This document shows positions 53,835 to 57,127 of a stretch of 64,000 bases of DNA, piece by piece. The stretch is from Methylacidiphilum infernorum V4 (GTDB lineage Bacteria; Verrucomicrobiota; Verrucomicrobiia; Methylacidiphilales; Methylacidiphilaceae): the NCBI RefSeq assembly GCF_000019665.1, contig NC_010794.1, positions 1,674,001 through 1,738,000 on the forward strand, given 5' to 3'. The translations under genes and the position numbers were made by a program. The notes beneath the pieces were generated by a model. That model was not told the origin of the DNA. It ran no database searches and saw nothing but the letters and a program-made list of their open reading frames with translations. Each line of letters begins with the position of its first letter. The stretch's first letter is position 1.

Positions 53835-54770
53835 TTATTCGTCTCTACCTTTGAGGCTTGGAAGGCTTTCTTTTCCTAAATTCACAGAGGCGGGGTTAAC
53901 CGTGGCCCTAAAATCGGAATTGTGGATTGGGAGATAAAGAGTAATCTCTACCCTTCTATTTTTTTCTTTCCCTTCTTGGAAGCTATTGTCCGCAATGGGC
54001 TTAGTTGCTCCTCCGGCGGCCAAAGAAAAAATATCCTCGGGAAGCTGGCTCAATTGAATGAGCGTCCTGATAACCGCTGCTGAACGCATGGCTGAAATTT
54101 CCCAGTTTGTTGGATATACATTCTGCACTTCCAATGCCGGGGGATCATTGTCGGTATACGCACAAACTTCGATCTTCGCCTCTTTGGAGTTATCCAAGTA
54201 AGGCTTGAGGGCCGTGATCAATTTTTCAAGAAGGGCTTTTCCACTATTACTTATTTTAATTCCTCCATAACTGAACAGTGCACTCTTACTGAATCGAATG
54301 ACTATGTTTTGCGGGTTTTGTATTACCCAAGATTCTCCCTTTTGTATTTCTTCGGCAAAGAGAGCGTTTAATTTTTGAGCCATTTCATGAATAAGGGTAA
54401 AATTTTCGTGCGTTGAAACCGCTTCTTCTTGCCTTTTTTTTGATTCAACCGCCTTGAGAGACTGGGTTGTTTTTTCAAGAAGTTCTTCCTGGCTTTTTAA
54501 TAAACTCCCCGTTTGCGCTAGTTCGGCTTGGAGTTGATCGACAACCGCCCTTTGCTTTTGATTTTCTTGTTTTAAAAGTTCGTCTTCCTCTTTAAGCACC
54601 CTAACCGTCTTTTCTAGGGAAACATACTGGCCATAAAAATATATGGCACTGGCGCCGAGAAAAACACTTAAAGAGACCCAGAAAAAAAAAGCTCCAAGTC
54701 CACCCGAAGGCACTACGGCGTGTTTCTTCTTTTGAACTTTGACTGAAACAACTGCTGGTTTTTGCTCCAT
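53835..54770 (-). CDS. OmpA/MotB C-terminal domain protein with one membrane helix
   Basis: A 311-residue envelope protein. A basic N-terminus is followed by one hydrophobic helix (GAFFFWVSLSVFLGASAIYF), a coiled coil of about 75 residues (KTVRVLKEEDELLKQENQKQ and on to LLEKTTQSLKAVESKKR) and a peptidoglycan-binding domain with VIRFSKSALFSYGGIKISNS, IEVCAYTDNDPPA and WEISAMRSAAVIRTLIQ then KNRRVEITLYLP. The layout is like MotB or inner-membrane OmpA proteins, linking inner membrane and cell wall. No MotA partner is adjacent. It lies downstream of the sigma-factor locus on the same strand. Confidence 0.83.
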   Translation of the reverse strand: MEQKPAVVSVKVQKKKHAVVPSGGLGAFFFWVSLSVFLGASAIYFYGQYVSLEKTVRVLKEEDELLKQENQKQRAVVDQLQAELAQTGSLLKSQEELLEKTTQSLKAVESKKRQEEAVSTHENFTLIHEMAQKLNALFAEEIQKGESWVIQNPQNIVIRFSKSALFSYGGIKISNSGKALLEKLITALKPYLDNSKEAKIEVCAYTDNDPPALEVQNVYPTNWEISAMRSAAVIRTLIQLSQLPEDIFSLAAGGATKPIADNSFQEGKEKNRRVEITLYLPIHNSDFRATVNPASVNLGKESLPSLKGRDE

Positions 54771-54841: not shown

Positions 54842-55960
54842 TCAACGGGAACCGTTTGTTTTTTCAATAGGAGGGGATAAAGGAGCAGTGCTCACGGGGA
54901 GAGGATTGGTCCAAGCCTTTTTAAGTTCCTCTGGACTGCTGGGCAAAATTGTCGAACCCGAAGGAGCGTCTAGCGGTCTATCCCCAACCAAGAATTCAAA
55001 TAAAAGCGGTTTCCCGTCCCTTATTACCTTTACGGGTATTTTTTGGCCAACAGAAACAAAAAAGGAGGCATCCATGACATCGGATAAGTTCTCAATTTTT
55101 TTTCCATTTATGGAGACAACCACATCCCCTTCCCGCAAGCCACTTCCCACCACGGGTGTATTGGGGAAAAGACGAGCCACGACAACTTTACCCTCGGCAT
55201 CTTCTTTCCCTAGCTTTGTAACGGCTACCCCTACCCAACCATAACGGACTTTTCCAAATTGACATAGATCGTCAACGACCTTTTTAATCGCGTTACTCGG
55301 AAGGGCATAACTCCACTCTTCCTCTTTGATACTCATGGTTATCATCCCAATAGCTAGCCCTCTTGAATTAATGAGCGGACCACCAACTTGACCGGGATTG
55401 ATCCTTGCATTTATCCTCAAATGGGTTGTTGGGAAAAAATGGTTTAAATATTCGCATTCTTTGCCAGCAATCAAACCAAAAGAAGGAGAGGAGGGAAGAT
55501 TGTAAGGAAAGCCGATCCCGATCACGGGCATCCCTGGAGCAACATCCAAAGTCTTGGCTAGTTTAAGATAAGGAAAAGGTTTTTGATCATCACTGACTTG
55601 AAGAACAACAACTCCGCTTCTTTCGTCAACACCTACTGTTTTGGCTAAATGCCATTGGTTACGGTACTCTACATAAAAAAGAGCCTCGGCTGCTTGTCCA
55701 GCTGAGGCAGTGATCACTATCCCTTTGGGATCAATGAAAAAGCCTGAACAATAACCGTCTACTCCTCCTCTTTTTTCGATACGAATGCGGACCACCGCAC
55801 TTTTGTTGCTTTCAAAAATCCTGTTTACTTCTTTTCCAATGCTGTCAAAAAGGTTTTCGGAGCCGATAGCATAGGGAACCCCTAGCAAAACAAGGAAAAA
55901 AAAAAGAAACGAGGGAACTGTTCTTGGGAATGAAACCTTAAAAAGCCACCATTGCTTCAT
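54842..55960 (-). CDS. HtrA-like protein with degenerate protease site and one PDZ domain
   Basis: About 372 residues from the ATG giving MKQWWLFKVSFPR; a longer frame (MRETSNPC...) would run into the upstream gene. The start has a signal sequence (FFFLVLLGVPYAIG). The chymotrypsin-like domain keeps SGFFIDPKGIVITASAGQAA and NPGQVGGPLINSRGLAIG. In HtrA these are xTNxHV and GNSGGPL. The catalytic His is absent and the Ser is Val. A PDZ domain follows (ARLFPNTPVVGSGLREGDVV, SINGKKIENLSDVMD). It is probably a non-proteolytic binding protein in the periplasm. It overlaps the membrane gene upstream by 23 bp in the sigma-factor locus. Confidence 0.85.
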   Translation of the reverse strand: MKQWWLFKVSFPRTVPSFLFFFLVLLGVPYAIGSENLFDSIGKEVNRIFESNKSAVVRIRIEKRGGVDGYCSGFFIDPKGIVITASAGQAAEALFYVEYRNQWHLAKTVGVDERSGVVVLQVSDDQKPFPYLKLAKTLDVAPGMPVIGIGFPYNLPSSPSFGLIAGKECEYLNHFFPTTHLRINARINPGQVGGPLINSRGLAIGMITMSIKEEEWSYALPSNAIKKVVDDLCQFGKVRYGWVGVAVTKLGKEDAEGKVVVARLFPNTPVVGSGLREGDVVVSINGKKIENLSDVMDASFFVSVGQKIPVKVIRDGKPLLFEFLVGDRPLDAPSGSTILPSSPEELKKAWTNPLPVSTAPLSPPIEKTNGSR

Positions 55961-56459
55961 AGTGAGTAAGACTATCCTGGACAACGGATTGAGAATCTTG
56001 AGAATGGGGCAAACTAGGCGAAAGCCGAGTGGATTCGATTTCAAGTGGCTGTTTTGATGGCACTGAAGAAGAAATAACCTGCAAGGGTTGCTTGTTTCCC
56101 TCACCCTGTGGGCTTATCGAATTGGTCGCCGCCAAGGAAGAAGGGCTGATATTCTGGGTGCGTTTTGAAAGCCCGATGCTCATGGCAGCCAAGAAAGCAA
56201 CGAAAATAAAAATGCCGGCAAATGCGGAACGGAATAAAACCTTCCTCTCCGCATCAAAAAACCACTGGAGTTTTTCAAAAAGCATTTCGGAAAAGGTCGT
56301 GTTTTTTATCATCTCTACTCTTAGCCTTCGATGAAGGCTTTTATGCATCTGCTCAAAATAATGAGCTGAAGCATGTTTTTCCACTTGTTGTTCTAAATGC
56401 TCCTTGATTCTCTTTTTCAAACCTTCCAGCTCCATCCTGTCTTGACTCTTCATCTCCAT
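55938..56459 (-). CDS. Single-span membrane protein, possible anti-sigma factor
   Basis: A 173-residue protein. A charged N-terminal cytoplasmic part (residues 1-75, LKKRIKEHLEQQVEKHASAH then YFEQMHKSLHRRLR) precedes one transmembrane helix (FAGIFIFVAFLAAMSIGLSK) and a Ser/Pro/Gln-rich periplasmic tail. This topology, and the position directly after an ECF sigma gene, suits an anti-sigma factor, although no ZAS/RseA motif (HxxxCxxC) is present. HYFEQMHKSLHRR has histidines but no Cys pair. It is flanked by the sigma gene and the HtrA-like gene and probably shares their transcript. Confidence 0.65.
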   Translation of the reverse strand: MEMKSQDRMELEGLKKRIKEHLEQQVEKHASAHYFEQMHKSLHRRLRVEMIKNTTFSEMLFEKLQWFFDAERKVLFRSAFAGIFIFVAFLAAMSIGLSKRTQNISPSSLAATNSISPQGEGNKQPLQVISSSVPSKQPLEIESTRLSPSLPHSQDSQSVVQDSLTHYEAMVAF

Positions 56460-56512
56460 ATCAAGGCCTCCAATATTTCCATCATCTCGAGTTGCACTTC
56501 AGCTTGTTAGTT

Positions 56513-57127
56513 CTAACTTATAAAGTTATTATCATTTTTCAAAATCTTTTGAAGTTGTTTATGAGCATAAAACAATCTAGAGCGAATTGTTCCTTCCGAA
56601 CAGCCCATGATTTTCGCTATTTCTGAATGGCTCAGTTCCTCTAGGTCAAAAAGAACAACCACCGCACGATGCTTTTCTGAAAGTTTGGATAAAGCTTCAT
56701 TTAAAATTTTTCCTAACTCTTTCATCTCAATCTGCTTTACCGCTTGTTCCCCGGAGCGGTAATCGACAAATTCCTTTTCTACTTGCCCCTCTTCCTCGTC
56801 AGAAAAATGGGGAAAGGGTTGAGGCGTAAACTTCGATTTTCTTTTGAAACTTATAGCCGTATTAACGGCAATGCGGTAAATCCACGTATAAAAAGAAGCA
56901 CCAATGCGAAAGCCTCCTATATTCTTGTAGGCCTTAAGGAAAGTTTCCATCAAGACATCATTCGTGTCTTCGTGATGGAGAAGAACTCCATAAATAACCC
57001 TATACAGTCTTTTTTGATACCGTTCTACCAATATATCAAAAGCTTCTAATTCTCCGGACTTCATCCGAAGGATAAGCTCTTGATCTGTAGGTGAGCGTTC
57101 AACAACTTCTGGAATGGCTTTTTCCAT
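56513..57127 (-). CDS. ECF-type RNA polymerase sigma factor
   Basis: A 204-residue sigma-70-family protein with only regions 2 and 4. Region 2 is FDILVERYQKRLYRVIYGVL and DTNDVLMETFLKAYKNIGGF then RIGASFYTWIYRIAVNTAIS. Region 4 is LSEKHRAVVVLFDLEELSHS then EIAKIMGCSEGTIRSRLFYA with a helix-turn-helix. It resembles RpoE-type envelope-stress sigma factors. Its first 20 residues (MEKAIPEVVERSPTDQELIL) precede the usual core. The next genes on its strand are a membrane protein and a dead HtrA-like protein, so it may respond to envelope stress. Confidence 0.92.
   Translation of the reverse strand: MEKAIPEVVERSPTDQELILRMKSGELEAFDILVERYQKRLYRVIYGVLLHHEDTNDVLMETFLKAYKNIGGFRIGASFYTWIYRIAVNTAISFKRKSKFTPQPFPHFSDEEEGQVEKEFVDYRSGEQAVKQIEMKELGKILNEALSKLSEKHRAVVVLFDLEELSHSEIAKIMGCSEGTIRSRLFYAHKQLQKILKNDNNFIS

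Follow-up and report, generated by a model that had tools for sequence, protein, structure and literature searches.

Envelope stress responses of the sigma-E type are usually described as being triggered by an active, PDZ-gated protease. In the AlgU-MucA-MucB-MucC-MucD operon of Pseudomonas, an HtrA gene accompanies the genes of the ECF sigma factor and the anti-sigma factor, and its product MucD is an active protease. Active DegS-type sensors (DegS, AlgW) are likewise known, and the PDZ domain of DegS binds the YxF C-terminus of outer membrane proteins (OMPs) (PMC8545111, PMC3582582). MamO of magnetotactic bacteria is an HtrA-derived pseudoprotease with another task: it keeps the His and Asp of the catalytic triad, has Thr at the Ser position, and is a metal-binding protein that takes part in magnetite formation (PMC4794232). 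A literature search, which left most subscription papers outside its reach, found no paper describing an ECF sigma operon with a linked dead HtrA.

The window analyzed here is a stretch of 64,000 nucleotides of the Methylacidiphilum infernorum V4 genome, which is 2.29 Mb in a single contig. An earlier note on this DNA had described a minus-strand trio at 54842-57127 that encodes an ECF sigma factor, a single-span membrane protein and an HtrA-like PDZ protein (hereafter pseudo-HtrA), and the three genes are present as claimed. The features of the locus are as follows.

56513..57127, minus strand: ECF sigma factor gene, RpoE-like, 204 aa (Pfam Sigma70_r2 and r4_2)
55938..56459, minus strand: membrane protein of 173 aa with one span, probably the anti-sigma factor (AlphaFold topology; family profile matches)
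56166..56243, minus strand: membrane helix of the probable anti-sigma factor, residues 73-98
55941..55961, minus strand: conserved tail YEAMVAF of the probable anti-sigma factor, candidate PDZ ligand (aromatic last residue in 111/117 loci)
54842..55960, minus strand: pseudo-HtrA, 372 aa, with an N-terminal signal or anchor, a dead trypsin domain and one PDZ domain
55862..55960, minus strand: candidate N-terminal hydrophobic signal or membrane anchor of pseudo-HtrA, residues 1-33 (direct reading of the sequence)
55256..55795, minus strand: trypsin-like domain without catalytic residues (Pfam Trypsin_2, 3e-16; fold match to DegP and DegS)
55700..55702, minus strand: catalytic His position, here Ala87 (alignment)
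55613..55615, minus strand: catalytic Asp position, here Gly116 (alignment)
55385..55387, minus strand: catalytic Ser position, here Val192 (alignment)
54989..55240, minus strand: PDZ domain (PDZ_2, 2e-12) with the presumed carboxylate-loop motif GWVGV, Trp242 being its first position
53835..54770, minus strand: OmpA/MotB-like peptidoglycan-binding protein, next cluster gene after HtrA (OmpA domain, 6.6e-12)

With the RpoE-RseA-RseB system and DegS/RseP of E. coli, this locus has in common an RpoE-like ECF sigma factor (matching the TIGR02939 RpoE model below the cut-off), a single-pass probable anti-sigma factor, a DegS-shaped trypsin-PDZ protein and an RseP encoded in the genome. It differs in that the DegS-like protein is dead and is encoded in the sigma operon itself, the probable anti-sigma factor itself ends like an OMP, and the operon has no RseB gene. 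With the Pseudomonas operon it shares an HtrA gene in an ECF sigma/anti-sigma operon, and MucD is among the close fold matches of pseudo-HtrA, whereas MucD is active and the triad here is lost throughout the class.

The mechanically called HtrA reading frame starts at GTG 56104; most plausibly the gene starts at ATG 55960, overlapping the membrane-protein gene by 23 nt. Both Pfam matches, Trypsin_2 and PDZ_2, were above the cut-off. The AlphaFold model (pLDDT 85.6) aligned with DegP, DegS, AlgW and MucD at VIA-align Z scores of ~29-32 over ~285 residues. Pseudo-HtrA thus has the layout of the HtrA superfamily, a trypsin-like fold followed by PDZ and aligned over most of its length, and more specifically that of DegS and AlgW, with a candidate N-terminal anchor, the trypsin domain and a single PDZ domain. 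It fell below the cut-offs of the NCBIfam DegS model (98.6 bits vs 422.95) and the MamO family model (34.7 bits vs 800), and its fold is that of HtrA and not that of RseB.

Catalytic positions were read by alignment to the active DegP paralogue of the same genome, in which His, Asp and Ser are present. The earlier note had inferred the loss of His and Ser from the motifs ITASAGQ and NPGQVGGPL; both motifs are there, and their A87 and V192 align with the His and Ser of DegP, which bears the claim out. The loss of Asp had been overlooked: pseudo-HtrA reads RSGVVVL where active paralogues read xSDxAxxK, so that the whole triad is gone. The His-Asp-Ser triad of the DegS/AlgW site-1 proteases is replaced by A87, G116 and V192.

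Homologues were sampled from 60 relatives of the same order, 58 orthologue regions belonging to other families in the class, further class and phylum regions, and sigma-anchored searches of two families. An HtrA match was found in 60/60 order relatives, at orthologue level in all except G026 and G043, and the triad was absent in all 30 loci that were fully read. Across the class, not one of 123 operon-type homologues carries His at the His column or Asp at the Asp column. The earlier note had proposed to look for conservation of the His and Ser losses; the loss is universal for His (0/123) but not for Ser, which is kept as a lone residue in 11/123. Wherever the positions were readable, HtrAs outside the operon retain H-D-S, as seen in both own paralogues and in 11 proteins of the phylum. 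In a tree of 61 proteins, one branch with 100/100 support split active from dead HtrAs. Across the class, the dead HtrA is preceded by a sigma orthologue. An upstream sigma gene on the same strand was found in 85 of 88 loci (L001-L030 and L109-L166); two of the other three (L021, L138) are contig ends, and L023 is a real exception. The recurrence of the operon together with the triad loss in more than 100 genomes is far above chance.

Within the genus, the dead HtrA gave a dN/dS of ~0.07-0.11, compared with 0.03-0.07 in the sigma factor and 0.06-0.18 in the OmpA-like gene; values for the membrane protein were 0.16-0.20, apart from one noisy pair at 0.69. The missing triad by itself would also fit a decaying gene or a local mutation, and the earlier note had named an intact triad in relatives at this locus as the sign of the latter; no such relative was found among the 123 operon-type homologues, which share the same losses. 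Together with the single, ancient, fully supported branch and the dN/dS of ~0.1, this rules out a pseudogene or local mutation, to which we assign a practically negligible probability. These results well support the view that pseudo-HtrA is an old, maintained family, that is, a conserved pseudoprotease.

Some members deviate from this pattern. The locus without a sigma gene, re-read over 6 kb (L220 3288-4673, the same as L023, in G033), has a dead HtrA and no sigma gene within 6 kb, and is the sole real operon break in this first set of 88. Members of family f11 have kept the PDZ domain while their protease domain has eroded, 15/25 showing a gap at the His column; compact genomes that we take to be Akkermansia are among them. 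In L294 (1738-2613 and 1210-1731) of G106, presumably Akkermansia as well, erosion has taken most of the operon HtrA's protease domain, RLGCLL stands at the PDZ loop in place of GWxGV, and the anti-sigma factor ends in VLIEM and not in Phe.

The membrane protein is probably the anti-sigma factor, as judged from its position, topology and weak profile matches. Its gene adjoins that of the ECF sigma factor, and its AlphaFold model has three helices, a membrane helix and a disordered remainder, the cytoplasmic part being helical. The window protein itself matched no known anti-sigma domain family in Pfam or NCBIfam, and a search for solved structures related to the family found none. Among its relatives, 6 of 76 matched the NCBIfam anti-sigma model NF052375 (best 1.3e-8), so the label is sound but unproven; two members gave a marginal match to zf-HC2. 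The mean column identity of the family is 17%.

Against this low overall identity stands the C-terminal end. Of 56 members less than 60% alike, 51 end in Phe and the other five in Tyr; position -3 is mostly hydrophobic, and Tyr is frequent at -7. Where a locus offered both a readable tail and an HtrA (117 loci), the final residue was Phe in 101, Tyr in 10, Met in 4, Asn in 1 and Leu in 1; inclusion of L076, which ends in Leu, gives 111/118 aromatic tails. As a control, Phe was the last residue in 1/75 sigma and 0/75 HtrA reading frames of the tail loci. Conservation merely through the overlap with the HtrA start was rejected, because the Phe end persists even in several loci whose HtrA frame begins beyond the stop codon of the anti-sigma gene. 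The OMP barrels of the same genome end in GYSF, RFTF, QWSW and SVFF; this comparison is based on BamA and three TonB-type barrels, since LptD was not detected in the genome. By its sequence, the anti-sigma tail resembles the OMP ends that are read by DegS-type PDZ domains.

The tail also varies together with the PDZ loop, which is conserved across the class. All 103 loci with an aromatic residue at the Trp242 position have an aromatic tail, and 6 of the 14 lacking one there have a non-aromatic tail, these being all six non-aromatic tails in the table (Fisher p ~1e-6, with relatedness ignored and about three or four independent events underlying it). L076, which lies outside the table, breaks the rule by keeping the loop Trp with its Leu end. 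The earlier note had suggested that the dead homologue could bind the periplasmic tail of the putative anti-sigma factor. The conserved Phe/Tyr end, its likeness to the ligand type of the DegS PDZ domain and its co-variation with the PDZ loop give this idea independent support and suggest that the interpretation is right in part.

Our results suggest that the dead protease is a holder or sensor rather than a cutter. With about even probability, the locus encodes an envelope-stress switch in which the dead HtrA is the PDZ docking partner of the anti-sigma tail, has an RseB-like role and is displaced by unfolded porin ends. The ECF sigma factor would be held at the membrane by the single-pass anti-sigma factor, beside a DegS-shaped protein that has lost protease activity and kept its PDZ domain. 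We infer that the PDZ groove most likely grips the aromatic anti-sigma C-terminus, as DegS grips OMP ends, and that the tail is thereby shielded; the likeness to the RseB/MucB shields would lie in this proposed role only. Unfolded OMPs, which have the same type of end in this genome, would accumulate in the periplasm and displace the tail from the PDZ domain by competition. Once free, the tail could be cut by other proteases, and the sigma factor would be released; RseP and two HtrAs with intact triads are encoded in the genome. More tentatively, and somewhat short of an even chance, we propose that throughout the class the sigma-E pathway's site-1 sensor protease has become a PDZ receptor that does not cut and in which the OMP-mimicking C-terminus of the anti-sigma factor would be the resident ligand, so that stress would be sensed by ligand competition and not by PDZ-gated proteolysis.

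The chief rival to docking on pseudo-HtrA is that the aromatic tail serves as a handle for an active PDZ protease in trans, such as RseP, through its PDZ domains, or a DegP-like HtrA, and that pseudo-HtrA has a separate task, for example as an OMP chaperone or sensor. Active HtrAs and RseP are indeed present, and family f20, which is mostly without an operon HtrA and has a longer anti-sigma factor, retains a Phe end in 14/17. These Phe tails of f20, a sister family, are the main evidence against an exclusive pairing of pseudo-HtrA and tail. We nevertheless regard the handle in trans as unlikely, though worth serious weight: the tail changes together with the PDZ loop of the operon HtrA, and in genus g130 two genomes without HtrA have an anti-sigma end of -PGP, both the HtrA and the aromatic tail having been lost. 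An orphan dead HtrA acting in trans where the operon copy is missing was also considered. A search of seven f20 genomes turned up no dead HtrA at other loci, and in genomes without an operon copy all 28 HtrAs with readable catalytic positions were H-D-S; two further weak matches (L322, L324) had unreadable catalytic positions. In L287 (4031-4843) and other f20 loci (L227-L256), the anti-sigma factor is ~270 aa with a conserved end, for example DRVAIKF.

Alternatively, pseudo-HtrA may be a release factor rather than a shield, in which a porin end bound to PDZ causes a shape change that presents the anti-sigma factor to another protease. The DegS-like layout and the retained PDZ domain would suit this role, and the conserved tail is equally compatible with it; nothing in the data separates release from shielding. 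Such a mechanism needs the PDZ domain to be free for porin ends, although the tail has the same type of end, and we judge it improbable. Recruitment of the trypsin-like domain for binding a metal or small ligand, as in MamO, is more doubtful still, and we give it very little credence. His180 (55421-55423) is adjacent to the dead active site. It does not vary within the order and occurs in 74/93 core loci, but elsewhere in the class Tyr, Leu or Phe takes its place. MamO and pseudo-HtrA would have in common the retention of an HtrA-derived pseudoprotease for a non-proteolytic task, which for pseudo-HtrA is proposed here; pseudo-HtrA differs in always lacking His and Asp and in the linkage of its gene to a sigma factor. 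With the similarity to MamO only distant and His180 so replaced, a MamO-like metal protein was left unsupported.

If docking of the tail on pseudo-HtrA is correct, the class-wide combination of a dead DegS-shaped protein with an OMP-like PDZ ligand on the anti-sigma factor would be a second wiring of the same sensor. Methanotrophs are among the Verrucomicrobiota in which it would provide a candidate peptide-PDZ pair, and a gut genus that we take to be Akkermansia would have the pair in altered form. The automatic annotation of these operon HtrA genes as serine proteases is likely wrong with regard to activity.

The region upstream of the sigma gene, inspected by eye within the genus, contained no clear GGAAC-type ECF self-promoter motif. 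A genus-conserved CTTGATTT lies there, with an AT-rich block downstream of CTTGATTT, and the two together look more like a housekeeping promoter than an ECF-type self-promoter. At the other end of the cluster, the OmpA/MotB-like protein has an N-terminal membrane helix and is encoded 3' of the dead HtrA in the window's own family only; it is possibly a target or partner of the stress system.
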